A DNA stretch of 64,000 bases. Origin: Arthrobacter zhangbolii. Lineage in GTDB: Bacteria > Actinomycetota > Actinomycetes > Actinomycetales > Micrococcaceae. The stretch is taken from positions 1,426,001 to 1,490,000 of the forward strand of contig NZ_CP094984.1 of assembly GCF_022869865.1 (NCBI RefSeq), in the 5' to 3' direction. Shown here in pieces: positions 34,540 through 48,465 of the stretch. Position numbers and translations under genes: made by a program. The stretch's first letter is position 1. Each line of letters opens with the position of its first letter. The notes under the pieces were generated by a model. That model worked only from the letters and a program-made list of their open reading frames with translations, searched no databases and was not told where the DNA came from.

Positions 34540-35264
34540 GCAAGATCCAAACCATCGGACTGCGGAAGTCCTACGGGTCCAACGAGGTCCTCAAGGGCCT
34601 GGACGTCAGCGTTGCCGAAGGGGAAGTGGTCTGCGTTATCGGTCCGTCCGGTTCCGGCAAGTCCACCTTCCTGCGGTGCCTGAACAAGCTGGAGGACATC
34701 AGCGGAGGAACGGTCAAGGTCAACGGTATTGACCTCACCGATCCGAAGGTGAACCTCAACGAGGTGCGCCAGCACATCGGTATGGTCTTCCAGCACTTCA
34801 ACCTCTTCCCGCACATGACCGTGCTGGAGAACATCATGCTGGCGCCGGTGCAGCTCAAGAAGGCGTCAAAGGAAGAGGTCCGCAAGACCGCGCTGGCACT
34901 GCTGGACCGGGTTGGCCTGGCCGATAAGGCGCACGCACGCCCGGCCCAGCTCTCCGGCGGCCAGAAGCAGCGTGTGGCCATTGCCCGTGCCCTGGCCATG
35001 AAGCCTGACGTCATGCTCTTTGATGAAGCGACGTCGGCGCTGGACCCCGAGATGGTGGGCGAAGTGCTGCAGGTCATCCGCGACCTGGCGGAGCAGGGCA
35101 TGACCATGGTGGTGGTTACGCATGAGATGGGCTTCGCCCGTGAAGTGGCCGACCGTGTGATCTTTATGGCGGATGGTTACATTGTGGAGGAAAACTCCCC
35201 GGAGCAGCTGTTCGGTGCCCCGCAGGCTCCGCGCCTGCAGGACTTCCTGGCCAAGGTCCTCTAG
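34536..35264 (+). CDS. Glutamine-type ABC transporter ATPase
   Basis: This cytoplasmic ATPase powers the fused binding-protein/permease encoded just upstream. Walker A (GPSGSGKST), the Q-loop, the ABC signature (LSGGQKQR) and Walker B (VMLFDEAT) are all intact, and it has the 242-aa length of the GlnQ/HisP/ArtP group. The GTG start overlaps the permease stop. NUDIX follows 54 nt later under its own promoter, so this gene probably ends the operon. Confidence 0.93.
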
Positions 35265-35306
35265 ACCCGAAAGAGCCTCCCACCGGTGGCCGCCCCCGGA
35301 TTTCGC

Positions 35307-35312
35307 TATGCT
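35307..35312 (+). promoter_or_regulatory. NUDIX gene -10 hexamer TATGCT, leaderless geometry
   Basis: TATGCT is followed by CAGGGC and the ATG at 35319, a 6-nt spacing. The AGGG directly before the ATG is too close to serve as a normal ribosome site. Confidence 0.5.
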
Positions 35313-35318
35313 CAGGGC

Positions 35319-35996
35319 ATGAGCGAACTTACCGGTACGGCGGCCACCGTTGTGCTTCTCCGGGACTCCGACGCCGGTCCCGAGGTGCTGCTGTTGGAGC
35401 GGCCGACGGCCGGATCCTTTGGCGGGGCCTGGGTGTTTCCCGGCGGCCGGGTGGATCCCGAAGACCGCCGGGACACGCCCTCCGAAGCAGAGGCGGCCCG
35501 GCTGGCAGGGGTTCGGGAAACCGCTGAAGAAACCGGACTGACCCTGCTTCCCGGTGCGCTGGTGCCGCTGTCCTGCTGGATCCCGCCGGAGAACATCCCG
35601 CGCCGCTACCAGACGTGGTTCTTTGCCGCTGCCGCTCCCGCGGGCACGATCCGGCTCAATCCGGGGGAACTGCTCAACTACCTCTGGCTGACCCCGGAGA
35701 ATGCCCTGGAGCGCCACCGCAACGGCCTGATGCAGCTGGTGACACCCACGTGGGTCACCCTGTACACCCTGTGCGGCGGGCCCAATGGTGCCGGGGCCGC
35801 CCTTGCCCAAATCGCGGACACCGTACCGGAGACCTTCCGGACCCGGCGGCTGGACGGATATGAACCGGCCACCGTGTTCGCCTGGGAGGGCGACGCGGAG
35901 TACGACGGCGCGGTATCCGGCGGCCCGGCACTTTCCCTCTCCCGCCACCGCCTCGTGATGGACGGGACGCACTGGCACTACGAGCGAACCCCCTGA
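35319..35996 (+). CDS. NUDIX hydrolase, NUDT7/NUDT19-like
   Basis: The protein (225 aa) has a Nudix fold beginning TAATVVLLRD. The Nudix box is recognisable as VFPGGRVD...VRETAEETGL, but about ten extra residues separate the GG from the REtaEE helix. This insertion is typical of the NUDT19/NUDT7 (acyl-CoA diphosphatase-like) branch rather than of MutT. The PGALVPLSCWIPPE and RRYQTWFF segments also occur in this branch. A substrate such as CoA esters is a family-level guess. The upstream start candidate lies before the promoter hexamer and is rejected. Confidence 0.82.
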   Translation: MSELTGTAATVVLLRDSDAGPEVLLLERPTAGSFGGAWVFPGGRVDPEDRRDTPSEAEAARLAGVRETAEETGLTLLPGALVPLSCWIPPENIPRRYQTWFFAAAAPAGTIRLNPGELLNYLWLTPENALERHRNGLMQLVTPTWVTLYTLCGGPNGAGAALAQIADTVPETFRTRRLDGYEPATVFAWEGDAEYDGAVSGGPALSLSRHRLVMDGTHWHYERTP

Positions 35997-36162
35997 GCCA
36001 GCGGACGGGGATGTCCGGCACCACGCCCACGCGCCGGCCCGGCTTGGTGTATCCACCACATAATGCGGGTCTGCAAGTTGTAGGCTGGCGGTCACCCTTC
36101 CGGATGACGCCCCGGCAGCTTCCAGTCCTGCTGCCGCGGCACCGGCCAGACTAAGGACGCCC

Positions 36163-37434
36163 ATGCTCGAGGAACAGGTACGCGACAGGCTCAACTGGGC
36201 AGGTAATTATGAGTATGCGGCCCGGCGGATTGTGGTGCCGGCGTCGCTTGCCGAACTGCAGCAGACGGTGGCCGGTGCCCGGCAGGTCGGCGTCCTTGGC
36301 TCGCGGCACTCCTTCAACGGCATTGCCGATAGTGCCGGGACCCTGGTGTCGCTGGAGGCGCTGCCCCCGGGGATCGATCTCGACACGGATGCGCGCACCG
36401 TCACCGTCGGCGCCGCCGTCCGCTACGGGATACTTGCAGAGCACCTGCAGCGACGCGGTTTTGCCCTCCACAACCTGGCATCCCTGCCCCATATCTCGGT
36501 GGGCGGGGCCATCGCGACCGCCACCCACGGCTCCGGTAACGGCAACGGGAACCTCGCCACCGCCGTCGTCGGCCTGGAACTTGTCACTGCCGATGGCGAG
36601 GTTCGGACCGTACGAAAGGGCGACAGCGATTTCGAGGGTCTGGTGGTGGGCCTCGGTGCCCTCGGCGTGGTGCACCGTGTGACCCTGCGCGTTGAGCCGG
36701 CCTTCAACGTGCGCCAGGACGTCTTCACCGGGGTGGCGTGGGACGCGGTGCTGGCCGACTTCGACGCCGCCATGTCCGCTGCCTACAGTGTCAGTCTGTT
36801 CACTGACTGGACCGAAGGCAGCATTGGGCAGGCATGGCTCAAGAGCCGCATGGATGATGCACGGGGTGTGCCGGAGGTGTTCTACGGTGGGACCCCGGCG
36901 GACCGTGCGCTGCACCCGGTGCCGGGCGTGGCTGCGGATCACTGTACCCGGCAGCTCGGCGTTCCCGGCCCGTGGTCGGACCGGCTGGCGCACTTCCGCC
37001 TCGCCTTCACGCCCAGCAACGGCGACGAGCTGCAGTCGGAGTATCTCGTAGGACGTAAACACGCGGTTGCAGCGATTCAGGCGGTCCGCGCACTTGCGCC
37101 GAAGATCACGCCCCTGCTGCTGGTGTCCGAGGTGCGCTCGATGGCAGCCGACGGGCTATGGCTCAGCAGCAACTACCACCGGGACGGAATTGGCCTGCAC
37201 TTCACCTGGAAGCCGCAGCAGGCGGCGGTCGAGGCCGTCCTGCCGGACATCGAGGCCGCCCTGGCTCCGTTCTCGGCGCGACCCCACTGGGGGAAACTGT
37301 TTACAACGGGCGCCGCTGCGCTTGCACCGCTCTACCCCCGGTTCGACGATTTCAAGGCCCTGGCCGGACGCATGGACCCCGAGGGGAAGTTCCGCAATCC
37401 CTTCCTGGACCGGACGGTCTTCGGGACGGCCTGA
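36163..37434 (+). CDS. FAD-dependent alditol/xylitol oxidase-like protein
   Basis: This 423-aa protein has an N-terminal FAD-binding (VAO-type) domain and a C-terminal ALO-type domain. H49 in VLGSRHSFNGIAD corresponds to the histidine that carries covalent FAD in alditol oxidases. The HNLASLPHISVGGAIATATHGSG loop region and the C-terminal RMDPEGKFRNPF motif fit the alditol/xylitol oxidase group. Such enzymes oxidise sugar alcohols and release hydrogen peroxide. The substrate cannot be told from sequence. There is no signal peptide. It stands alone, 166 nt after the NUDIX gene. Confidence 0.82.
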   Translation: MLEEQVRDRLNWAGNYEYAARRIVVPASLAELQQTVAGARQVGVLGSRHSFNGIADSAGTLVSLEALPPGIDLDTDARTVTVGAAVRYGILAEHLQRRGFALHNLASLPHISVGGAIATATHGSGNGNGNLATAVVGLELVTADGEVRTVRKGDSDFEGLVVGLGALGVVHRVTLRVEPAFNVRQDVFTGVAWDAVLADFDAAMSAAYSVSLFTDWTEGSIGQAWLKSRMDDARGVPEVFYGGTPADRALHPVPGVAADHCTRQLGVPGPWSDRLAHFRLAFTPSNGDELQSEYLVGRKHAVAAIQAVRALAPKITPLLLVSEVRSMAADGLWLSSNYHRDGIGLHFTWKPQQAAVEAVLPDIEAALAPFSARPHWGKLFTTGAAALAPLYPRFDDFKALAGRMDPEGKFRNPFLDRTVFGTA

Positions 37435-37457
37435 CGCTTCTCCGGGGAGCCGGCGGC

Positions 37458-37463
37458 TAGAGT
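37458..37463 (+). promoter_or_regulatory. -10 hexamer TAGAGT of the SdpI-like gene, leaderless geometry
   Basis: TAGAGT is followed by ACTGCAC and the ATG at 37471, a 7-nt spacing with no ribosome site. Confidence 0.5.
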
Positions 37464-37470
37464 ACTGCAC

Positions 37471-37836
37471 ATGGGGATCACCGGGGTACTTTTGATAATC
37501 TGCGGCGCGGGGCTTTCCTGGGCGGCTGAAGCCACGGCGAGCGGCCGGATGGGCATCAACTCGCTGGTGGGTATCCGGGTGGGATACGTAACGGTGTCGG
37601 AGCCCGCCTGGCGCGCCGGGCACCGAGCTGCCCGCCCGCTGACTCATGCCGCTGCCGGCGTATTTGCCGCACTGGGAATTTTTGCGCTGGTTTTCTGTGG
37701 TGCTGAAAGCACTTCGGGCGCGGCCATCATCAGCGGTTCCCTGCTGGTTCTGGGCCTCATACTGGCGGCTGCGGTGAAGGCAAACCGGGCTGCCCGTGCG
37801 GTGGTCCTGGCTGCTTCGCCACACGGCCGGGCCTAG
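37471..37836 (+). CDS. SdpI-like integral membrane protein
   Basis: This 121-aa protein has three hydrophobic segments and the SdpI-family loop GINSLVGIRVGYV...AWRAGHRAA between the first two. In Bacillus, SdpI gives immunity to the SdpC toxin, but most family members have no assigned role and no sdp toxin gene is visible here. It lies alone between an oxidase gene and the convergent siderophore operon. Confidence 0.75.
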   Translation: MGITGVLLIICGAGLSWAAEATASGRMGINSLVGIRVGYVTVSEPAWRAGHRAARPLTHAAAGVFAALGIFALVFCGAESTSGAAIISGSLLVLGLILAAAVKANRAARAVVLAASPHGRA

Positions 37837-37928
37837 AGCGCACGGGAACGCTGCCGGGGAATGCAGCCGGGGTAACGGGTTCACGGCGACCCGGCGGCCG
37901 GCCAGCGCCGCACACATCAGCCGATGGG

Positions 37929-39239
37929 TCAGTTGCCGTCCTCCAGGACCTCCGCCAACCCGCGGATCAGCCAGGGAGACCACCAGGCCCAGTCGTGCCC
38001 TCCGGTGATGGATCGGAAACCGACGTCCGCTCCCGCCTCCCCAAGGACCTGCGCGAGGTGGGCGGCCGGCTCATGCACGGTGGACTCATATCGTCCGGCC
38101 TGCATGCGGATCCGGACCCGGTCTTTGACCGGCATCAGGTAGGCCGCAAGGTCATACCGCCACAACGACGGCGACTGGGCGAGCGCCTTGCCTATCAGGT
38201 CCGGGTAGCGGGCCACCTGCCACAGGGCCGCCAGTCCGCCGTAGCTGGCCCCTGAAACCACTGTGTCTTCGGCCCGCGGGCTCACCGGCAGCCTGCCGCG
38301 CAGGACCGGCAGGAGATCCCGCCCCAGGAAATCGACTGTGCCAACCGGCCCGGACAGTTCCCGGGACCGGGTTTCCACGTCTGCCGAATCGATCAGTGCC
38401 ACACATACTGGCGGGAGCGCTCCGCAACGGATCGCAGAGTCAAGGGTCGCCTGCAGGTTCTGGTACCTGGCCCAGACCTGCCCGTCATGCAGCAGGACCA
38501 GCGGAAGGCCTTGGACGCTGCCGCCCGTGGCCGGCGGCGCATACAGCCAGACTTTCCGCATCCGTCCCGCAAGGGTATCCGGAACCCACAGCTCCTGAAG
38601 CCGTGGAACTGGCCCGGTATGGCCCGGCGTCGGTGCAGCAAGCCACGGTGCCGCGGGTGCCCCGGGTAACCGGAGCACCGACGTCGGTGTGCCGTCCATT
38701 GCCGCTCCAACGTGGGGATTCCGCGAATCCCTGCCCCCGGCGTTGGCAGCTATCCGGACGGTGCGGCGGTCTGCGGCGGTCCGCCAGGGTACCGGCAGAC
38801 CGGCCGGTGAGGACGTGATGCGGTAGCTCGCTTCCCAATCCTGCGGCATCCGCAGGGTCAAGGCCCATAGCCCGGCTCTGGTGGCGGCACTGCCGGATAG
38901 AGGAGTGAACTCCGTTGCTGCCGGGTTCCGGTGGTCCACCAGGGCATTGGCCGAGAGAATCACTGCCTCAGGGGGTGCACCGGGCCCATCCTCGCGATAC
39001 AGGAATGTGGCGGCACGGAACTCCGGACAGCCCTGCGGGTCCGCTTCCACCAAGGGAAGTACCAACGTGTCCCAACGTGCAAGGAAATCCGCCTGTCCTG
39101 CAGCGCCCAACCGGCTCCACAAACGCTCGAAGTGTCCCTGCAGGACCTGAATCGGTGCCGGCTCAGGCGGAACGGGGACACGTGGATCGGGAAAACTGCT
39201 GGCTGCCGACTCGGTTGTATGCCTCGGTTCCCCACTCAT
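37929..39239 (-). CDS. fes: Enterochelin esterase-like ferric-siderophore hydrolase
   Basis: This 436-aa protein resembles Fes/IroD: an N-terminal domain of about 190 residues, then an alpha/beta-hydrolase esterase domain. The serine nucleophile is in GASYGG (VVSGASYGGLAALW), the PSLW motif follows, and the catalytic histidine is in TGGHDWAWW near the C-terminus. There is no signal peptide, consistent with release of iron from the siderophore inside the cell. Its ATG overlaps the ATPase stop (ATGA) as the last gene of the uptake operon. A catecholate trilactone substrate is inferred. Confidence 0.88.
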   Translation of the reverse strand: MSGEPRHTTESAASSFPDPRVPVPPEPAPIQVLQGHFERLWSRLGAAGQADFLARWDTLVLPLVEADPQGCPEFRAATFLYREDGPGAPPEAVILSANALVDHRNPAATEFTPLSGSAATRAGLWALTLRMPQDWEASYRITSSPAGLPVPWRTAADRRTVRIAANAGGRDSRNPHVGAAMDGTPTSVLRLPGAPAAPWLAAPTPGHTGPVPRLQELWVPDTLAGRMRKVWLYAPPATGGSVQGLPLVLLHDGQVWARYQNLQATLDSAIRCGALPPVCVALIDSADVETRSRELSGPVGTVDFLGRDLLPVLRGRLPVSPRAEDTVVSGASYGGLAALWQVARYPDLIGKALAQSPSLWRYDLAAYLMPVKDRVRIRMQAGRYESTVHEPAAHLAQVLGEAGADVGFRSITGGHDWAWWSPWLIRGLAEVLEDGN

Positions 39240-40039
39240 CGCACCGCATCTTCAGGCTCGAGAGGCACCACCAGCGGCCCTCCGGTGGCCGGATCCGGGA
39301 TGATCACGGCATCGATTCCGTAGATTTCCTTCATCAGTTTCGGCGTGGCGATCTGCTCCGGAGGGCCCTGCGCCAGCACGCGGCCGTCCTTCATGGCAAT
39401 GATGTGGTCCGCAAACCGGAAGGCCAGGCTCAGTTCGTGAAGCACGGTGACCAGGGTGTAGTCGCCACTGCGGTGCAGATTCCGGCACAGGCGCAGTACG
39501 TCCAGCTGATGGGAAATGTCCAGGAACGTGGTGGGTTCATCCAGAAGCAGCACGGGGGTGTCCTGTGCCAGCACCAGGGCAAGCCAGACCCGTTGCCGTT
39601 GACCGCCGGAAAGCTCGCCTACGGTCCGGCCGGCCAGGTCCGTCACTCCGGTGGCAGCCATGGCCGCATCAACCGCCTGCCGGTCGGCGTCGGACCAAGG
39701 GCGCAACAGGCCCTGATGCGGGAACCGTCCCCGGGCCACCAGATCCGCTACGGTGATGCCGTCCGGCGCCGTGGACGACTGCGGCAGAAGCGCCAGCCGC
39801 CGGGCCACCTCCCGGGTGGGGTAGCCGGCGATGTCCTGTCCGTGCAGGAAGACCTGTCCGGCAACCGGCTTGAGGAGCCGTGAGAGGGCACGCAGCAGCG
39901 TGGACTTGCCGCATGCATTCGGCCCGATAATGGCAGTAAATGAACCGGGCGGAATGTTCACGTTCAGATACTCGGAGATGGTCCGGCCCTCGTAGCCCAG
40001 GGTGAGACCAGCGCCGGAGAGAACATGTTGAGCGGGCAT
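39236..40039 (-). CDS. Siderophore ABC transporter ATPase (FecE/FepC type)
   Basis: This cytoplasmic ATPase drives ferric-siderophore import. Walker A is GPNACGKST, the signature LSGGQRQR and Walker B VLLLDEPT. I use ATG 40039 (MPAQHVLSG) because AAGAGG lies about 6 nt upstream; an ATG at 40066 would add nine residues without a ribosome site. Length is 267 aa. It follows the second permease gene by 29 nt and overlaps the esterase gene. Confidence 0.92.
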   Translation of the reverse strand: MPAQHVLSGAGLTLGYEGRTISEYLNVNIPPGSFTAIIGPNACGKSTLLRALSRLLKPVAGQVFLHGQDIAGYPTREVARRLALLPQSSTAPDGITVADLVARGRFPHQGLLRPWSDADRQAVDAAMAATGVTDLAGRTVGELSGGQRQRVWLALVLAQDTPVLLLDEPTTFLDISHQLDVLRLCRNLHRSGDYTLVTVLHELSLAFRFADHIIAMKDGRVLAQGPPEQIATPKLMKEIYGIDAVIIPDPATGGPLVVPLEPEDAVR

Positions 40040-40068
40040 AGCGCCTCTTTCGGTGGGAGTTCGCATAG

Positions 40069-41118
40069 TCAGACCTGCCTGCTGCGGGTCAGGAGCCAGA
40101 GCAGGTAGACGCCGCCCACCAGACCGGTCATCAGGCCGATTGGCAGCGCTGCGCGGACTGGCAGCTGCTGCGACAGCAGATCAGCGCCGGTCACGAGCAC
40201 TGCACCCATCAGGGCCCCTGTGCCAATCGGAATGGCGGGGGAGCGGGTCAGCCTTGCGGCAAGCTGCGGTGCGGCCAGCGCCACAAAAGCAAGGGGGCCG
40301 ACGGCGGCCGTCGCCACGGCGGTCAGGCCGACGGCCGCAGCCATCGACGTAATCCGCGTCTGTTCCACACGGACGCCCAAGGCGCGGGCAGCGTCGTCAC
40401 CCATTTCCATCAGGGTGAGCGACCGTCCCAGGACGAGCAGGACCGGCAGCAGCAGGACCAATGCGCACAGGACCGGTACGGCGTGTTCCCAGGTCCGGGC
40501 GGCAAGGGATCCGGACAGCCACAGGTGTGCCTGGGCCGCAAGGTCCGCATCCCCCTTGGCCAGAAGGACCGAGTTCAGCGCCGAGAGCACGGCGCCTACA
40601 CCTATGCCGATCAGGACCAGCCGGTACCCGCCGGTTAGTCCGCCCTGCAGGGACAATAAGTAGACCAGTGCCGCAGCGAGCAGGCCACCTCCCACTGCCC
40701 ACAGTGCAGTGGCGGCAGCGCCGGCGTCGAACAGGATGATCTGGGCCACCGCACCGGTAGCCGCGCCGGTGGTGAAGCCGATGATGTCCGGTGATCCCAG
40801 GGCGTTGCGGGATACGGATTGGAAAACGGCACCGGCTGCGCCAAGACAGGCGCCCACAGCCAGGGCCGTCACCGCCCGGGGCAAGCGGATACGGTGCACC
40901 ACCGCGGTGGTCCGCGGCTCCTCACTGAGGCCAAAAACTGCAGCAAGCACATCACTGAACGGCAGTGAAATGCTCCCGGTCTGCATGGCCGCGACACCCA
41001 GCATGGTGGCCGTGAAGGCCAGCAGCGTGCCGACGGCTGCCGTGCGGCTGCGGCCCAATGCCCTGCGCTGCCAACGGCGGCTTTTCACCGCCAGTGCCGT
41101 GCTTTTGGTTCCCCTCAC
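40069..41118 (-). CDS. Siderophore ABC transporter permease (FecCD family), second subunit
   Basis: An integral membrane protein of 349 aa with about nine or ten hydrophobic segments. It has the FecCD motifs LPRAVTALAVGACLGAAG and GxxxGAxxxA-type helices, ending LLTRSRQV. It pairs with the permease encoded just upstream to form the channel. Its start overlaps the stop of the other permease gene (ATGA). Confidence 0.92.
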   Translation of the reverse strand: MRGTKSTALAVKSRRWQRRALGRSRTAAVGTLLAFTATMLGVAAMQTGSISLPFSDVLAAVFGLSEEPRTTAVVHRIRLPRAVTALAVGACLGAAGAVFQSVSRNALGSPDIIGFTTGAATGAVAQIILFDAGAAATALWAVGGGLLAAALVYLLSLQGGLTGGYRLVLIGIGVGAVLSALNSVLLAKGDADLAAQAHLWLSGSLAARTWEHAVPVLCALVLLLPVLLVLGRSLTLMEMGDDAARALGVRVEQTRITSMAAAVGLTAVATAAVGPLAFVALAAPQLAARLTRSPAIPIGTGALMGAVLVTGADLLSQQLPVRAALPIGLMTGLVGGVYLLWLLTRSRQV

Positions 41119-42122
41119 AGCCTCGCCAGCTTCCGCCGCCGGGCGAGGGCGATAAAGAACGGTGCGCCCACCAGTGCGCTCATCACACCGGCACCGATTT
41201 CGTCCGGGGCGGCCACGAGCCGGCCCAGCACATCCGCACAGAGCAGCAGGACCGCCCCCAGCAGCATGGAAAAGGGCAGGAGTCGGCGATGGGCGGGTCC
41301 CACGATCAGCCGGGCGGTGTGGGGTGCAGCCAGACCCAGGAAGCCGATAGGTCCCGCTGCGGCTGTGGCGGCGCCGGCGAGTAAGAGGATGGCAGCGGTC
41401 CCGATGATCCAGGTGGTGCGCACGCGCACGCCCAGGCTCCGGCCCAGGTCTGCACCCAGGGACAGGGAGTCCAAGCTGCGGGCGGCCGGCAGTGCCATGG
41501 CCGCTGCGGCAGCGCCCGCGCCCAGAACCCAGGGCAGCACGTCATACCCGCGGCCCTGCAGCGAACCGGTGGCCCAGTTGGCATAGGAACTGTAGGTTTC
41601 CTCGCTGCCAGACAGCAGGAGGATCGATGTAGCGGCGCCGAGCATAACCGACAGTCCCGCACCGGCTAGGACCAGGCGGACGGGGTTGGTGCCGGCGTCG
41701 TGCGCCCTGCCCAGCAGGTAGACCACGAGGGAGGTGGCAGCCGCTCCGGTGAAACCGAAGAACATGTACTCCTGGGGGCTGGTAGCCGAGAACATAGTCA
41801 GACCGGTTGCGACGGCGAATGCCGCGCCCGCGTTGACTCCCAGAATGCCCGGTTCGGCCAGCGGGTTCCTCGTTAGTGCCTGCATCAGTGCCCCTGCCAA
41901 GCCGAGGGCAGCACCCACTGCGACGGCCAGCAGGGTGCGCGGGAGGCGCAGTTCCCGCACCAGCAGGTGGGTGTTTTGGCTCGGATCAAAGCGGGCCATG
42001 GCTGCCCAGGTATCGGGGAGCGGAATAGGGCGGCTCCCCATGGTCAGGCTGGCGAAAGTGAGGAACAGGAGCAGGACCAGTCCTACGGCCCAGCCCTGCC
42101 CCTGACGGTGTTTGTGCTGCAT
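41115..42122 (-). CDS. Siderophore ABC transporter permease (FecCD family), first subunit
   Basis: This 335-aa membrane protein shows the FecCD motif LRLPRTLLAVAVGAALGLAG followed by MQALTRNPLAEPGILG, which is the most conserved part of the family. About nine helices are visible. It starts 12 nt after the binding-protein gene and overlaps the next permease gene by 4 nt. Confidence 0.93.
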   Translation of the reverse strand: MQHKHRQGQGWAVGLVLLLFLTFASLTMGSRPIPLPDTWAAMARFDPSQNTHLLVRELRLPRTLLAVAVGAALGLAGALMQALTRNPLAEPGILGVNAGAAFAVATGLTMFSATSPQEYMFFGFTGAAATSLVVYLLGRAHDAGTNPVRLVLAGAGLSVMLGAATSILLLSGSEETYSSYANWATGSLQGRGYDVLPWVLGAGAAAAAMALPAARSLDSLSLGADLGRSLGVRVRTTWIIGTAAILLLAGAATAAAGPIGFLGLAAPHTARLIVGPAHRRLLPFSMLLGAVLLLCADVLGRLVAAPDEIGAGVMSALVGAPFFIALARRRKLARL

Positions 42123-42134
42123 GGTTGTGGTGGT

Positions 42135-43214
42135 TTACTTACCGAAAGTCTCCCCGAACCAGTCCACGATTTCAGTAGAGCTGTAGTAGTCCAGGCGGAA
42201 TGAGGCCAAGCCCAGGGGATACACCTTGTTGTTAACGACTGCGGGGACGTTGGCCAGTGTGGGATCGGCCGTGAATGCGTCAACCTTCTTCTCGTCTGCG
42301 CTGATGAGGAAGGTGTAGCTGCCGGTCACGGACTCGGCCAGGCCCTCATAGGAGCTGAAAGAGAAATCCTCGCGCTTCTGGACCGAGGTGTCGTACTGTT
42401 CATCGGGTTCGGCGATGCGGAAGCCCAGTGTCTGCAGCAGCTGGGCGTGCGGGCCGGTGGTTTTCCCAACCGGGGACGGCCTGCCAGGGTTGTAGCTGAC
42501 AATCGAGGCGGTGGCGCCCTCTTCAATGCGTAGGGTTTCAGCAGTTTCAGCCACCTTCGCATCGAACTCTTCGACGACGTCCGCTGCATCCTGTTCGTGT
42601 CCCGTTGCTTCGCCCAGCTCTTCGGCCAGGTCCTGCCAGGATTGGTCACCGTAGTTCACCACAACGGTGGGGGCAATGCCGCTGAGGGTCTCATATTGGT
42701 CCAGCACGGAGTCATTGCCGGACGTCGAGACAACAATCAGGTCCGGTTCCTGGGCAATAACCGCTTCAAGGTCAAATTCACCAACCGGGTACAGGGGCTC
42801 CACGTTGCGCTGGACGGCGACGTCGGCCCATTGGGTAAAGAAGCCGTTTTCATCCGCGGTGCCGCCCTTGGCGGGGGTAAAGGCCGTCGCCGTTACCGGG
42901 GCGTCGATGGCCAACAGCGTGCCGGTGACGGACAGGGTGGTGGAAACGATCCTCTCCGGCATCGCATCGATGGTTGTTTCGCCCGCCTCGTGGGTGACGG
43001 TGCGAGGCCACTCACCCGAGGCGCCGGTGCCCTCCAGCGGGGTCTCCGATTCGGCAGCGGTGGTGCAGGCAGCCAGGGAAAGGGAAAGAGCAGCCGAAGC
43101 GGCAAGGGCAATGCCCCTAGTGAATGTTCGCCGCGGGATGGACCCGGAGGAGTTATGGTTGCGGCGTTTCGCAAGCGGGGTGGGAAGACCTGTTTTGGGC
43201 AGGGCGAAGCTCAA
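42135..43214 (-). CDS. Siderophore-binding lipoprotein (FepB/FecB type)
   Basis: This 359-aa protein delivers ferric siderophore to the permease. The N-terminus carries a twin-arginine motif (R28-R-T-F-T) and a hydrophobic stretch ending in the lipobox SLAAC with C50 as the lipidated residue, so it is probably a Tat-exported lipoprotein. Two periplasmic-binding lobes follow (PERIVSTTLSVTGTLLAI and EPDLIVVSTSG). The start is TTG 43214 with AGGAG about 6 nt upstream. It is the first gene of the five-gene operon, behind an IdeR/DtxR-like box. Confidence 0.9.
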   Translation of the reverse strand: MSFALPKTGLPTPLAKRRNHNSSGSIPRRTFTRGIALAASAALSLSLAACTTAAESETPLEGTGASGEWPRTVTHEAGETTIDAMPERIVSTTLSVTGTLLAIDAPVTATAFTPAKGGTADENGFFTQWADVAVQRNVEPLYPVGEFDLEAVIAQEPDLIVVSTSGNDSVLDQYETLSGIAPTVVVNYGDQSWQDLAEELGEATGHEQDAADVVEEFDAKVAETAETLRIEEGATASIVSYNPGRPSPVGKTTGPHAQLLQTLGFRIAEPDEQYDTSVQKREDFSFSSYEGLAESVTGSYTFLISADEKKVDAFTADPTLANVPAVVNNKVYPLGLASFRLDYYSSTEIVDWFGETFGK

Positions 43215-43359
43215 AATGACTCCTAGGTGGGCTGCCCGTCCGGGGCGCTACGCTGCTCGCGGTGAAAGCAGCCGTTCCGTGAGGAGCTGGCGTTTCCGTG
43301 CTGGTGCGGTCCGGATGCTAGGCAGAAGTGGCTGGAGTTGCGGGAGTGCTCGCCGCAAC

Positions 43360-43378
43360 AACAGTTAGCGTAACCTAA
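43360..43378 (-). promoter_or_regulatory. IdeR/DtxR-type iron box upstream of the siderophore operon
   Basis: On the minus strand the 19-mer TTAGGTTACGCTAACTGTT matches the IdeR/DtxR consensus TTAGGTTAGSCTAACCTAA at 15 of 19 positions, with the left half and centre nearly perfect. It lies 146 nt before the binding-protein start, in a 201-nt AT-richer gap. It predicts repression by iron. Confidence 0.72.
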
Positions 43379-43415
43379 GTGCGCCCTAATTACGCAACAT
43401 TACTGTGTCCTAATG

Positions 43416-44372
43416 CTAAGCGTTCTGCCGTACACCCTTTATCGATGCTCCTCGTCCGGAGATTCGCTTCGCACAGGTGCGCCGCGCACGGCCGAGTACC
43501 GCCAGGATCCGGTTCCGGGCAGCCCGGCCCTCCGGAACCGGAAGCAGCGGATACACGTGGACGCCGCCCTCCGCTATATGCAGGTTTACCCGGCACCCGC
43601 CCGCCAGCATTGCCTTCTCGAGGCGCAGGATGTCCGGGTACGGCAGATCGCTGGTGCCGGAAAACAGCTCAGTGGCCGGCAGCCCGGAGAAGCTGCCGTT
43701 CAGCGGACTAACCCGGGGATCATTCAGAGGGTCGCCGGCGGCCCACGCCTCCGCGGACACCCGAAGCCCGGTTCGGCTCAGCCAGGGATCACGCGCTTCC
43801 ACTTCCGCAAGTTCCGGGTTCTGCATGGCCAGGTCCACCCAGGGAGAGAGCAGCACCAGCCGGCCCGGCGGCGGGAGGGACAGGCCGGCCAGTTGTTGCG
43901 CAAAGGCCAGGGCCAGTCCGCCCCCGGAGGAATCACCCATAAAGGCCACCGCACCCGGCGGGCACTCTGACAGGATTTTGCGGTACACGGCAGTAAGGAA
44001 CGGCGTCGCATCCCGGTGGTTAAACTTCGGCGCCAAACCGTACAGCGGCACCTCCACGCGGTACCCAGCGGCGGCAAGACGGGCGATAAAACGCCAGTGC
44101 CAGCCGGTGATCGGGCTGGTGTAGGCCCCGCCGTGCAGATACATCACCAGCGGTGCGGGGGAGGGCCGCGGGGTCCGCGGAAACACGGACCAGCAGGTGA
44201 AACCGTTGACCGTGCGTTCCTGAACTCCGTACCTGCCCCGCAGCCGACGCGGAGGAGGCGCCGGGTGCTTATCTGCGGCGAGCCGCTGCCGCGCACGCCG
44301 CACCGTTGCGGTCAGGGGTTTCCGGGTCAGCCGCAGGTAGGGGACCAGAAGCCGCATGGGCACACTCGCCAA
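43416..44372 (-). CDS. Alpha/beta hydrolase fold-3 esterase/lipase
   Basis: This 318-aa protein belongs to the hormone-sensitive-lipase-like group. The oxyanion motif HGGAY, the nucleophile motif GDSSGGG, an aspartate in SGTSDLPYPD and a histidine in EGGVHVYP make a full catalytic triad. The start is TTG 44372 with GGAGGG about 7 nt upstream. No signal peptide is seen. The substrate is unknown; ester or carbamate hydrolysis is all the family supports. It lies upstream of the siderophore operon on the same strand but the operon has its own promoter. Confidence 0.85.
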   Translation of the reverse strand: MASVPMRLLVPYLRLTRKPLTATVRRARQRLAADKHPAPPPRRLRGRYGVQERTVNGFTCWSVFPRTPRPSPAPLVMYLHGGAYTSPITGWHWRFIARLAAAGYRVEVPLYGLAPKFNHRDATPFLTAVYRKILSECPPGAVAFMGDSSGGGLALAFAQQLAGLSLPPPGRLVLLSPWVDLAMQNPELAEVEARDPWLSRTGLRVSAEAWAAGDPLNDPRVSPLNGSFSGLPATELFSGTSDLPYPDILRLEKAMLAGGCRVNLHIAEGGVHVYPLLPVPEGRAARNRILAVLGRARRTCAKRISGRGASIKGVRQNA

Positions 44373-44501
44373 TTGGACACCCTCCCTCGCAACGGAAAAC
44401 CTGACCGAAGACTATGCGGGTATTCCGGTGATCTGCGCGCGGCACACCGGGGCACCTCCGCACCCGTTGACAGGGCTGGCCGGACCCCGGAACCTGTTGG
44501 C

Positions 44502-45053
44502 ATGCGCAAGGTAACCTCAGCACTTTTCAGTTCGGTTGACGGCGTCGTGGAATCACCGAACCTTTGGCAGTTCGACCACTTCGACGAGGAGATGGGCCCG
44601 GCCATGGAAGCGGCGCTCTCCGGCATGGATACGGTGCTGATGGGCCGCTCCACCTACGAGCAGTGGGCCGGTTACTGGCCGGACCCGGCGCACGACGACG
44701 AGTTCGGACTGTTCATCAATCCCGTCCGCAAATACGTGGCTTCCCGCACCCTTGAGGGACCTCTGGAATGGGAGAACTCTTCCCTGATCGACGGGGATCT
44801 GGAGGATTTTGTCGCAGACCTCCGCACCACCGAAGGCGGCACCATCGGGGTCCAGGGCAGCATCTCGGTTGTCCGGCAACTGCTTTTTGCCGGCCTGCTG
44901 GATGAGCTCACCCTAATGGTGCATCCCGTGGTCGCCGGCAGCGGGCAGCGGCTCTTCCGGCCCGAAGACCCCACCACCCGGCTGGAGCTGAAAAACTCCC
45001 AGGTCACGTCCTCCGGCAATGCCCTGCTTACCTACGGCCTGCGTTCGGACTGA
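44502..45053 (+). CDS. Dihydrofolate reductase-like (RibD C-terminal domain) protein
   Basis: This 183-aa protein starts MRKVTSALFSSVDGVVE and contains DTVLMGRSTYEQWAGYW, IGVQGSISVVRQLL and LMVHPVVAGSGQRLF, the usual signature of single-domain RibD-C/DHFR-like reductases. These bind NADPH, but most members, including this type, have no proven substrate and are not the housekeeping DHFR. A consensus TTGACA at 44467-44472 could be its -35, with no clear -10. Its end overlaps the end of the opposing hydrolase gene by 26 nt. Confidence 0.85.
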   Translation: MRKVTSALFSSVDGVVESPNLWQFDHFDEEMGPAMEAALSGMDTVLMGRSTYEQWAGYWPDPAHDDEFGLFINPVRKYVASRTLEGPLEWENSSLIDGDLEDFVADLRTTEGGTIGVQGSISVVRQLLFAGLLDELTLMVHPVVAGSGQRLFRPEDPTTRLELKNSQVTSSGNALLTYGLRSD

Positions 45054-45708
45054 GGAGCACGAATTCAGCCGCCGGGTCCGCCAGCGCTGCACCGATCACC
45101 TCTGCCGGACGCTTCTGCCCCCGGACTTCAAAGGAATGGTTCCCGCCGTCGACGTACTGAATACGCGCATTCGTCCCGATCCGGCCGGCTATTGGTTCCA
45201 GTTCACCCGGCAGTGCAAACGGATCGCGGGTGCCCTGCAGGAACAGCATGGGCACGGTGATTCCGTACAGGTGTGCATCCCGCAGCTTTTCCGGTTTGCC
45301 CGGGGGATGCAGCGGATAGCCCAGGTACACCAGTCCGGCCGCCGGCATGCCCTCGGCAACGGCCATGGAAGCCATCCGACCGCCGAACGATTTCCCACAG
45401 GCCCATACCGGCGTATCCCCGCTGCGGGTCAGCGCAGCCTCCATGGCTGTTCTCCACGCCTCAACAGCAACCGGTGCCTTGTCCGGGAATTTCCGGCCGG
45501 CCTCCCGGTAGGGAAAGTTGAACCGCAGGGTCGCCAGGCCGGCATGGTTCAAGGCCTCCGAAAACCCGGTCAGGAACGGATGCTCCATGCCGGTGCCGGC
45601 TCCGTGCGCCACCACGACGACGGCGGCCGGCTCGGCGGGGCGTGAAAACTCTGCGGAGACCGTTGCCTCACCGACGCGAAGGGACAGCTGTTCGGACGTA
45701 ACGGGCAT
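45028..45708 (-). CDS. Alpha/beta hydrolase, Tex30/dienelactone-hydrolase-like
   Basis: The protein (226 aa from ATG 45708) has the motifs of the KANL3/Tex30 hydrolase group: [13 protein letters not shown], nucleophile in [11 protein letters not shown], an aspartate in QGTRDPF and a histidine in GGNHSF. The function is unknown. ATG 45720 (MFEH) would add four residues. The shorter start has TATGTT exactly 7 nt upstream and no ribosome site, so a leaderless mRNA is possible; the choice is not certain. The gene converges on the reductase gene. Confidence 0.78.
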
Positions 45709-45744
45709 GTGTTCAAACATACTGCAGTATCGGGGTGCCGCTCC

Positions 45745-45773
45745 TTGAGGGCATCCGCTGATCGCCTTAGACT
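45745..45773 (+). promoter_or_regulatory. Promoter TTGAGG-17-TAGACT
   Basis: TTGAGG (45745-45750) and TAGACT (45768-45773) are separated by exactly 17 nt. Transcription would start near 45780, giving a 200-nt leader before the 58-aa gene. This is one of the best two-element promoters in the window. Confidence 0.65.
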
Positions 45774-45779
45774 GGGAAG

Positions 45780-45979
45780 TGGACAGGATCTGAAGGCCAG
45801 GCATGTAAATCACCTGATGCCGGCGCGAGTTTGAAGCGCAGTCTCTCCTGATCCCCGCGGTCCGCCTCGGGCGACGAACCGAATGATCACTCCGGCACTG
45901 AAGCCATACCACCTTGGAACCCACCGACTTTCGGTGTGCCCGGAGTTCCTCCATGCCTCTTGAAGGGAGCATCAGCTAT
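45780..45979 (+). promoter_or_regulatory. Long folded 5' leader of unknown class
   Basis: The leader can fold into several stems: GGCAT/ATGCC near 45803-45823, GCGC/GCGC near 45823-45840, and a long arm ACTCCGGCA / TGCCCGGAGT (one bulge) that encloses the perfect hairpin CACCGA-CTT-TCGGTG. It also contains an ATG-TAA start-stop pair, a 5-codon ORF, and a 26-codon ORF (45883-45963) whose stop overlaps the ribosome site of the next gene. I could not match it to any riboswitch consensus I know (c-di-AMP, glycine, SAM, cobalamin, TPP, FMN, Mg, Mn, fluoride). Confidence 0.5.
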
Positions 45980-46156
45980 ATGTTGAAGCACGTCGCTGTA
46001 ACGCGTACCAGAACCACCAACTCACGATTGACCGCACAGATCGCTGCTATCGCTGCAGGATGTGCGCTGGTTGCCGGGGGAGTATCGGCAGCCGAAATCG
46101 CGATGCTGAACGCAGCACCGGCCCCGAGCCCGGTTGTCGCCGAAGCCAACGCCTAG
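45980..46156 (+). CDS. Small membrane or secreted peptide (58 aa), unknown
   Basis: This small gene encodes a 58-residue peptide: a basic N-terminus (MLKHVAVTRTRTTNSRLTAQ), a hydrophobic segment (IAAIAAGCALVAGGVSAAEI) and a short Ala/Pro tail. It looks like either a single membrane helix or a signal peptide with a very short mature part. I do not recognise the family. AAGGGAG lies about 10 nt before the ATG. It has its own promoter, a 200-nt leader and a dedicated terminator, which argues that it is a real transcription unit rather than chance. An ATG at 45953 in the same frame is a possible alternative start. Confidence 0.6.
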   Translation: MLKHVAVTRTRTTNSRLTAQIAAIAAGCALVAGGVSAAEIAMLNAAPAPSPVVAEANA

Positions 46157-46174
46157 CAGCGAAAAGAAAGTCTC

Positions 46175-46211
46175 CGCCGTCGTTCCCGTTCGAGGGAATG
46201 GCGGCGTTTTT
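46175..46211 (+). terminator. Rho-independent terminator after the 58-aa gene
   Basis: CGCCGTCGTTCCC and GGGAATGGCGGCG pair at 11 of 13 positions around GTTCGA and are followed by TTTTT (46207-46211). It begins 18 nt after the stop codon. Confidence 0.85.
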
Positions 46212-46291
46212 GCGTCCGGGGCGGGTTGGGCGGGAGCTGTACCGCCTCCATAGAATGGAGAACCCATCATTTCAATTTCCGCAGGAGCACC

Positions 46292-46945
46292 GTGCCCAGA
46301 GGCAAACACCATCCGCCGCGTCCCAAGCCCGCCAACAGCGAGGGCATGCTTATTGCCAATGACCTGAAGAAGGAACGCGGCTGGACCGACGGGCAGATCA
46401 AGACCTTCCTGCCGGAACCGGACAAAACCGCCCGTAATCCGTTCTCCCGCAAGGCCGCGCCCATGAAGCTGTATTCCCTCGAGCGGGTGGAAGCCATCGA
46501 GGCGACGCCGGAGTACCGCAGGGCCCGCGAAGCTTCCCGGAACCGGCAGCTGGCGGCCCGCGAACGTGCCCTGGTGAAGAAGAAGGCGGCCGTCGCCGTC
46601 GCCGAATCCCTGGACCTGCGAATTACTCCCGAGCCGTGGGACACCGTCCTGCAGAAGGCGATAGCCCACTTCAACGGCCGGCTGCGCGGCAAACAGTCAC
46701 CGGCCGGCCTCTCGACCGCACCGTCGCGGCTGAACCGGCTCACCGTGAACTACCTCCGCCACCAGCAGACCTCCTACGAAGAGGAACTGAAGGAGTTTAA
46801 AGGCGTGGTGGGCGTCGGCGAGGCCTATCTGGTGGTCCGAAACCGGATCCTGGACCTGATTGCAGACACCTACCCGCAGCTGAAAGCCGAATGTGAACGG
46901 CAGAAGTTCGATGCGCCGGAGCTGCCCGACGGCGTGACACTGTAG
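46292..46945 (+). CDS. Conserved hypothetical protein (217 aa)
   Basis: I cannot name this protein. It is basic and mostly helical. The N-terminal part has a segment LKKERGWTDGQIKTFLPEPD followed by NPFSRKAAPMKLYSLERVEAIE. This pattern (a short helix pair, then an LYxxxRVExxE helix) occurs at the N-terminus of several actinobacterial hypothetical proteins and resembles a winged-helix or Xis-like DNA-binding unit. A charged helix (residues 70-105) and a C-terminal helical domain follow, with no catalytic motif. The start is GTG 46292 with AGGAG just upstream; TAGAAT at 46251-46256 is a possible -10. No signal peptide or membrane helix is seen. Confidence 0.75.
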   Translation: MPRGKHHPPRPKPANSEGMLIANDLKKERGWTDGQIKTFLPEPDKTARNPFSRKAAPMKLYSLERVEAIEATPEYRRAREASRNRQLAARERALVKKKAAVAVAESLDLRITPEPWDTVLQKAIAHFNGRLRGKQSPAGLSTAPSRLNRLTVNYLRHQQTSYEEELKEFKGVVGVGEAYLVVRNRILDLIADTYPQLKAECERQKFDAPELPDGVTL

Positions 46946-46975
46946 GTGCCGGACTCGCCAACGCATCCGGACGGC

Positions 46976-47014
46976 GGCAGGGCCGCACCTTCAGAAAGAA
47001 GATGCGGCCCTGCC
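46976..47014. terminator. Bidirectional hairpin between the hypothetical gene and glnA1
   Basis: GGCAGGGCCGCA (46976-46987) and TGCGGCCCTGCC (47003-47014) form a perfect 12-bp stem with a 15-nt loop between two convergent genes. No T-run follows on either side. Confidence 0.65.
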
Positions 47015-47040
47015 GGTGAGGTCCTGGAAGCCGTAAGGGC

Positions 47041-48465
47041 CTAGACGCCGTAGTAAAGCTCGAACTCGAACGGGTTCGGGCGCATGGCCAGCGGCAGGAT
47101 TTCGAACTCGCGCTTGTACGCGATCCAGCTGTCGATCATGTCCTGGGTGAACACGCCGCCTGCCTGGAGGAACTCGTTGTCGTTTTCCAGGGCAACGAGA
47201 GCCTCTTCGAGGGAGCCCGGAGCCTTCTGGATGTGCTGTGCCTCTTCGGGCGGCAGCTCGTAAAGGTCCTTGTCGATCGGGTCGGCAGGCTCAATGCGGT
47301 TCTTGATGCCGTCCAGGCCGGCCATCAGCTGGGCGGAGAACGCCAGGTACGGGTTGGAGGAGGGATCCGGCGCACGGAATTCGAGGCGCTTGGCCTTCGG
47401 GTTGGAACCGGTGATCGGAATGCGGATGGCAGCCGAGCGGTTGCCCTGCGAGTAGACCATGTTCACCGGAGCCTCGAAGCCCTTGACCAGGCGGCGGTAG
47501 GAGTTCACCGTCGGGTTGGTGAAGGCCAGCACGGCGGAGGCGTGCTTGAGCAGGCCGCCAATGTACCAGCGGGCCAGGTCCGAAAGGCCGGCGTAACCCT
47601 TCTCGTCATAGAACAGCGGCTCGCCCCCGTTCCACAGCGACTGGTGGCAGTGCATGCCCGAACCGTTGTCACCGAAGATCGGTTTCGGCATAAAGGTGGC
47701 GGACTTGCCCCAGGCGTCGGCAACGTTCTTCACGATGTACTTGAACTTCTGCAGGTCATCCGCAGCGTGGGTCAGGGTGGTGAACTTGTAGTTGATCTCG
47801 GCCTGGCCGGCGCCGCCGACCTCGTGGTGGGCGCGCTCAACTTCGAGGCCCACATTGTCCAGCTCAACGCTGATGGCGTCGCGCAGGTCAGCCTGCTTGT
47901 CCACCGGCGCCACGGGGAAGTAGCCGCCCTTGTACGGGGTCTTGTTGCCCAGGTTGCCGCCCTCTTCCTCGCGGCCGCTGTTCCACGGGGCTTCGATCGA
48001 GTCCACCTTGTAGAAGCTTCCCTTGGGGGAGGACTCGTACTGGACGTTGTCGAAGATGTAGAACTCGGCCTCGGAGCCGAAGAAGGCCGTGTCGGCGATG
48101 CCTGTGGAGGCCAGGTAGGCCTCGGCACGCTCGGCCACGCCGCGGGGATCGCGGTGGTACGGCTCGCCGGTGCGGGGGTTCACGATGGAGAAGTTAAGCG
48201 CCAGCGTCTTCTCCATGCGGAAGGGATCGATGAACGCCGTGGTGACGTCCGGGATCAGCTGCATGTCGGACTCGGCGATGCCCTGGAAGCCGCGGATGGA
48301 TGAGCCGTCGAACAGCTGACCGTTGACGAAGAAATCGGCATCGACGGTTTTGGCCGGCACGTTGAAGTGCTGCTGCACTCCGGGAACGTCGGTGAATCGG
48401 ATGTCGACGAACTTCACTTGCTCGTCAGCGATGAACTTGAGGACCTCGTCCGCGTTCTTGAACAT
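47041..48465 (-). CDS. glnA: Glutamine synthetase type I (GlnA1)
   Basis: This is the main nitrogen-assimilating glutamine synthetase, a dodecamer that makes glutamine from glutamate, ammonia and ATP. It is 474 aa, the standard GlnA1 length. Catalytic motifs are intact ([48 protein letters not shown]). Y402 in [11 protein letters not shown] is the conserved adenylylation tyrosine, the expected target of GlnE at 30 kb. The start is ATG 48465 with AGGAG 10 nt upstream; the longer frame runs through the leader. A four-site GlnR operator lies 114 nt upstream. Confidence 0.96.

Follow-up and report, generated by a model that had tools for sequence, protein, structure and literature searches.

In the type I toxin-antitoxin system TisB/IstR, the tisB mRNA combines a long leader, a hidden ribosome site, and a short hydrophobic ORF. 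Type I toxins are usually patchy and multicopy in their distribution. TimP (ryfA) is a toxic small membrane protein of 38 amino acids found in Enterobacteria and paired with the sRNA TimR (PMC7667032). The timP ORF starts at position +145 of its own transcript, behind 144 nt of leader; conservation is higher in the signal part than in the tail, and ryfA, listed in Rfam as RF00126, was initially annotated as a noncoding RNA (PMC7667032).

Here we describe a locus of Arthrobacter zhangbolii, analyzed within a 64-kb stretch of DNA (the window), in which a long leader likewise precedes a small hydrophobic ORF. The small gene is genuine and self-contained and belongs to one Arthrobacter lineage. 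A peptide profile search detected its product in 28 of 29 Arthrobacter genomes, the exception being G014, and the peptide genes fall into three sequence groups, i.e., A (12 genomes, including that of the window), B (8 genomes), and C (8 genomes). The features of the unit, with P1 to P4 denoting the helices of the predicted leader fold, are as follows.

45745-46211, plus strand: whole unit, from promoter to terminator
45745-45773, plus strand: promoter, with -35 TTGAGG (45745-45750), 17-nt spacer, and -10 TAGACT (45768-45773)
45781-45973, plus strand: predicted structured leader, from the P1 5' arm through the end of the Shine-Dalgarno hairpin (match to leader model R1)
45781-45798, plus strand: predicted P1 helix, 5' arm GGACAGGATCTGAAGGCC (consensus fold)
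45836-45885, plus strand: most conserved leader block (identity compared with four-fold sites)
45838-45850, plus strand: predicted P1 helix, 3' arm GCAGTCTCTCCTG
45858-45881, plus strand: predicted P2 hairpin CGGTCCGCCTCGGGCGACGAACCG, near-invariant
45889-45946, plus strand: predicted P3 helix, ACTCCGGC ... CCGGAGT, with invariant basal pairs and a variable top
45953-45972, plus strand: predicted P4 hairpin ATGCCTCT-TGA-AGGGAGCAT over the Shine-Dalgarno GGGAG (45965-45969)
45980-46156, plus strand: 58-codon ORF, from the ATG at 45980 to the end of the stop codon at 46156
46175-46211, plus strand: intrinsic terminator, 13-bp stem (46175-46206) followed by T5

The order of promoter, leader of about 199 nt, 58-codon ORF, and terminator is kept in all 12 group-A genomes, the window genome included, in agreement with the original prediction of a self-contained unit. 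The promoter it had named, TTGAGG-17-TAGACT, is the sole sigma-70-like pair common to the 12 genomes in a 750-nt alignment around the ORF; the other conserved pair in this alignment lies at 46251, ahead of the downstream gene, and is present in 8 of the 12. A generic promoter scan of 45001-47200 at the stricter setting of 9/12 letters missed it, the score of the window copy being 8/12, and returned no other promoter; the copy in G020 passes that same scan. With the transcript start placed at 45781 from the position of the -10 hexamer, the leader (~45781-45979) and the coding part (174 nt) are about equal in length, and the expectation of a leader more than 3-fold longer than the coding part was wrong. 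An alternative in-frame ATG upstream, at 45953, is out of frame in several relatives. The anticipated T5 terminator is likewise present; its stem occurs in all 12 group-A genomes, with the T-run interrupted in one of them (G016), and the window shares 0.88 to 0.94 identity with the 11 others across the terminator region (46172-46206). An attenuator had been suggested as one possible role of the leader. Attenuation, with the ORF as a leader peptide, was rejected as unlikely because the terminator comes after the ORF and a separate promoter-like site (46251) precedes the next gene in 8 of the 12 genomes; in groups B and C, the downstream genes are different ones.

Identities at codon positions 1, 2, and 3 are 0.93, 0.95, and 0.79 over all group-A pairs, the pattern expected of a translated gene under purifying selection; the predicted hydrophobic ORF is real. 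Its 58-amino-acid product comprises a basic N-region, a hydrophobic core extending to ALVAGGVSA, and a 21-residue acidic tail. The core includes a 16-residue segment with a mean hydropathy of 2.03, which places the peptide within the size (<60 amino acids) and hydrophobicity range of type I toxins. All 20 peptides examined, of the 28 known, have the same design, i.e., a basic N-region (charge +2 to +6), a 16-residue segment that is itself uncharged (mean hydropathy 1.86 to 2.29), and an acidic tail, with VSA, VTA, or ASA preceding A/V-E; the variants of VSA belong to group C (ASA in one member, VTA in another). Groups A, B, and C have in common the core LVAGGVSA[AV]E and a basic N-region ahead of it. 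The residue pattern, with its basic n-region, hydrophobic h-region, and small residues at -3 and -1, is that of a Sec-type signal. Beyond the putative signal-peptidase site, the tail is exactly 21 residues long in the 14 group-A and group-B peptides examined, its sequence drifting, and 18 to 24 residues long in the 6 group-C peptides examined. As a control, a comparable basic-then-hydrophobic pattern was found in 2 of 115 ATG-started window frames of 45 to 75 codons, a count that possibly includes this ORF. AlphaFold, given the peptide alone without an alignment, modeled one helix (residues 2 to 32) with a break at GGVS (mean pLDDT, 79.6; pTM, 0.42), a model that we take as weak support.

The peptide matches no described family and represents an undescribed one. 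Neither Pfam nor NCBIfam returned a family above cut-off. As candidate identities, the SCO2400 family (score, 20.9 bits; cut-off, 55) and dsrB, DUF3040, and CwsA (each weak or below cut-off) were discarded, as were PHROGs, where matches were weak, and the PDB, where they were KDPG aldolases at chance level. PADLOC had no match for the peptide, and the gene is not named among the titles listed by open-access literature searches, which is weak evidence of absence.

A profile built from 20 of the 28 peptides found one strong copy per genome in the 28, all further matches being weak (best E value, 0.008). At the DNA level, 13 of the 29 genus genomes matched, 12 of them being the group-A genomes with the whole unit; the thirteenth, G023, matched only in an unrelated gene and in a portion of its peptide copy, which is more distant. 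No convincing homologue of the peptide was found outside the genus in 395 sampled genomes of the family (best E value, 1.9e-4). Six of the outside matches (E values of 1.9e-4 to 0.01) were inspected and set aside, all lying in unrelated frames and looking like chance; one is what we take to be a twin-arginine-like signal sharing ALVAGGVSAAE. Searches of plasmid and viral collections found no relative of the unit. At the level of sequence, the unit has a conserved promoter, a selected ORF, a conserved leader, a terminator, and a single-copy distribution.

The gene lies near glnA in groups A and B and elsewhere in group C. In the window, a glutamine-type ABC transporter comes first and is separated from the ORF by other genes spanning about 10 kb; a gene of 217 residues and then glnA follow the ORF. 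In the 11 other group-A genomes the gene following glnA lies, as in the window, about 2.5 to 4.5 kb from the ORF. In group B, the transporter is directly upstream of the ORF in all eight stretches and glnA follows in seven, the eighth ending too early. The eight group-C ORFs are all flanked by an aldo/keto-reductase-like gene on one side and a small membrane-protein-like gene on the other, both named by sequence likeness only, and no peptide copy was found at the glnA locus of five group-C genomes examined or of G014. We dropped a functional tie to glnA because group C is located elsewhere and these five group-C glnA loci are without the gene.

Some further observations concern the neighborhood itself. 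The roughly 10 kb between transporter and peptide gene in the window (35261-45980) contain a FecCD-like permease gene and esterase-like genes, named by likeness. G014 is the sole genome of the genus in which no peptide gene was detectable, and its transporter and glnA are some 440 nt apart (L125). The 217-residue gene (46292-46945 in the window) appears to be cut short in G018 by a stop at codon 194 and to be split into two separate matching pieces in G023 (L031, L105/L106 relatives).

Within group A, the leader is predicted to fold into P1, P2, P3, and P4. The P1 arms are conserved while the interior diverges and varies in length, so that the modeled span ranges from 184 to 218 nt. The inner hairpins of P3 also vary between genomes; this is the region in which the original prediction had placed a 9-bp arm around a 6-bp hairpin, and both exist, the inner hairpin not being conserved. 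All eight pairs of P4 never vary in group A, and the GGGAG that it would cover is predicted to be mostly paired in the 12 genomes (unpaired probability, 0.04 to 0.32). The Shine-Dalgarno is partly paired elsewhere too (unpaired probability, 0.12 to 0.58 in group B and 0.16 to 0.49 in group C), a comparison that spans the three groups of this gene rather than ordinary genes. Forcing P1 to P4 on the window leader costs 1.0 kcal/mol. Both the fold and the Shine-Dalgarno occlusion are thus model predictions, by which the conserved folded leader probably hides the ribosome-binding site.

All analyses of the group-A leader are based on 12 sequences, several of them near-identical. Between the window and the 11 other group-A genomes, identity in the block 45836-45885 is 84 to 90%, compared with 57 to 67% at the four-fold sites of the downstream gene, 57 to 62% in the 5' part of the leader (45780-45835), and 64 to 74% in the 3' part (45886-45979). 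What exceeds chance in the leader is this sequence conservation, and it lies on helices in most tests. Pairing and conservation were compared using the minimum-energy fold of a reference leader, simple pairwise alignments with the two genomes that diverge most, and circular shifts of the fold. With five related clade members as references, paired positions were more conserved in 10 of 10 comparisons, which are not independent, and 0 to 4 of 184 to 197 shifts did as well. The corresponding figures were 4 to 11 of 217 for the G016 fold and 2, 67, and 85 of 192 for the window fold, for which the effect is weak in two of the three comparisons. A model-fitted alignment agrees, though such an alignment leans toward structure.

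Covariation was absent among the 11 distinct sequences, none of the 54 pairs having changed in both partners, a count of little power given that 42 of the 54 never vary. For the same reason, i.e., arms too conserved for covariation, the share of alignment cells able to pair (98.5%) hardly exceeds that in shuffles (98.3%). The folding energy of the window leader did not go beyond that of shuffles (z = 0.28, with the energy equaled or bettered by 114 of 200 shuffles; z = 1.01 in a second run), and the 12 group-A leaders showed no excess folding stability (z of -1.22 to 1.01).

The original prediction had matched the leader to no known riboswitch consensus, and the scan of the window bore this out: Rfam 15 at the gathering score gave no match in the entire 64 kb, and a permissive search gave only a chance-level match to BcKCsr2 outside the leader (46067-46212; 13.6 bits against a cut-off of 40; E value, 1.5). 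Leader model R1 had one match in each of 12 of the 29 genus genomes (E < 1e-18), always upstream of the peptide gene. It also gave three chance-level matches in these genomes (E values of 0.28 to 0.94). Over all searches with R1, the best of the weak matches (E value, 0.08) fell within a permease-like gene, on the minus strand at 41904-42006. With stricter filters, R1 found two matches in 149 genomes of the family, both in group A and none in another genus.

A leader common to all groups was therefore rejected, R1 finding group A and otherwise weak matches only. The leaders of the 16 other peptide-carrying genomes (groups B and C) are unrelated to that of group A and align poorly or within subgroups only, so that the conservation expected in relatives holds for the 12 group-A genomes and fails in groups B and C. 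They measure 153 to 229 nt in group B, but 55 nt in G008, and 66 to 71 nt in group C, and the Shine-Dalgarno is mostly stronger in both groups. The group-A leader is thus not needed for the peptide in general.

Two features of groups B and C merit separate mention. A second, unrelated group-B leader of 226 to 229 nt (L036, L037, and L040) has repeated CTGCACTGCAGC segments and folds better than shuffles (z of -1.8 to -3.6, 60 shuffles each). In group C, TGTGAKNNNNGTTATGCAA occurs about 98 to 121 nt upstream of the ATG (L043-L049; L161-L167), once per genome in seven of the eight genomes; there is no exact copy in G000, G007, or G015, the copy at the G015 peptide gene being one letter off. We consider it a candidate gene-specific operator or unusual -35 region.

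These data bear on the nature of the RNA. A ligand-sensing riboswitch or another known RNA class would account for the length, the several helices, the covered Shine-Dalgarno, and the near-invariant P2. Riboswitch classes are usually found ahead of several different genes and in several taxa, whereas this leader occurs upstream of one gene in one clade, without an Rfam family or covariation (low-powered as that count is), and we regard such an identity as highly improbable. Given the lack of an Rfam match, the restriction to 12 genomes, the absence of covariation, and the unrelated leaders of groups B and C, the leader is not a widespread riboswitch class or attenuator. Hence, of the RNA element originally proposed, the conserved structured leader stands and the assignment to a riboswitch class or attenuator falls.

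Alternatively, the gene could be constitutive, its long, stable leader only protecting the mRNA through its helices or persisting as a nonregulatory relic, with no switch involved. The ordinary folding energy in group A, the short leaders that suffice in group C and G008, and the lack of relatedness between the leaders of the groups all fit this account. It is at odds with a leader block more conserved than four-fold sites and with an invariant P4 that masks the ribosome site, a masking not needed for protection alone; on balance we think it unlikely.

The same covered ribosome site, together with the gene's own promoter, long leader, and small signal-bearing peptide with a hydrophobic part more conserved than the tail, could instead indicate a type I-like toxin mRNA, i.e., a membrane toxin silenced by its leader and an antisense or trans-acting sRNA, as in TimP/TimR or TisB/IstR. 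No conserved sigma-70-like promoter was found, however, on the minus strand of the 750-nt group-A alignment around the ORF, although an sRNA encoded in trans or a promoter of another type may have escaped this search. Neither PADLOC nor Rfam (ryfA RF00126, searched in the window) gave a match, and the occurrence of a single strong copy in each of 28 of 29 genomes contrasts with the usual pattern of toxins. We consider this account quite improbable.

Our preferred reading, to which we assign a probability of roughly 60%, is that a single Arthrobacter lineage carries an autonomous gene whose small product is membrane targeted or secreted and whose own 5' leader limits output at the step of translation. 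Transcription from the sigma-70-like promoter would give a monocistronic RNA of some 430 nt, and its leader would fold as P1-P2-P3-P4. With P4 masking the Shine-Dalgarno, initiation would require the opening of P4, either spontaneous or helped by an sRNA, a protein, or upstream refolding. The peptide would then be inserted N-in/C-out and possibly cleaved at the signal-peptidase-like site VSA/AE, with the 21-residue acidic tail beyond. Both the translational control and the Sec targeting are what we infer from these features. A bolder version, which we rate a long shot, is a genus-specific module in which the near-invariant ALVAGGVSA[AV]E core rather than the mature tail is active, as a proposed effector in the membrane or as a peptide signal that signal peptidase sets free; opening of an undescribed, clade-specific RNA leader would switch it on, and the RNA would have been replaced wholesale between groups with the peptide kept.

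Beyond the mechanism, the data add an undescribed, single-copy small-protein family (28 of 29 genomes of the genus) and offer a tractable case of a 5' leader that differs wholly between groups while the peptide is kept. They also illustrate that a conserved structured leader may resemble a riboswitch from one genome yet prove to be gene and clade specific.

Compared with the known systems, the Arthrobacter unit recalls tisB mRNA in its long leader, hidden ribosome site, and short hydrophobic ORF, and differs from mRNAs of this type in its single-copy distribution, its signal-peptidase-like site, and the lack of a detectable antisense RNA signal. With small signal-bearing or single-pass membrane proteins generally, the peptide shares the basic N-region, the one hydrophobic segment, and the short acidic tail; it differs in having no Pfam or NCBIfam family above cut-off and only weak PHROGs and PDB matches. 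TimP is the closest published parallel that we found. The unit departs from it in peptide length (58 versus 38 amino acids), in having no divergent or antisense promoter that we could find, and in giving no match to RF00126 in the window, a comparison of ryfA as an RNA family rather than of the TimP protein. It resembles TimP in encoding a small signal-bearing peptide behind a long leader of its own, with conservation stronger in the signal part than in the tail. Most likely, then, the locus combines a lineage-specific, translation-limiting 5' leader with a small signal-bearing protein that is as yet undescribed, in an arrangement like that of TimP/ryfA or the mRNAs of type I toxins.
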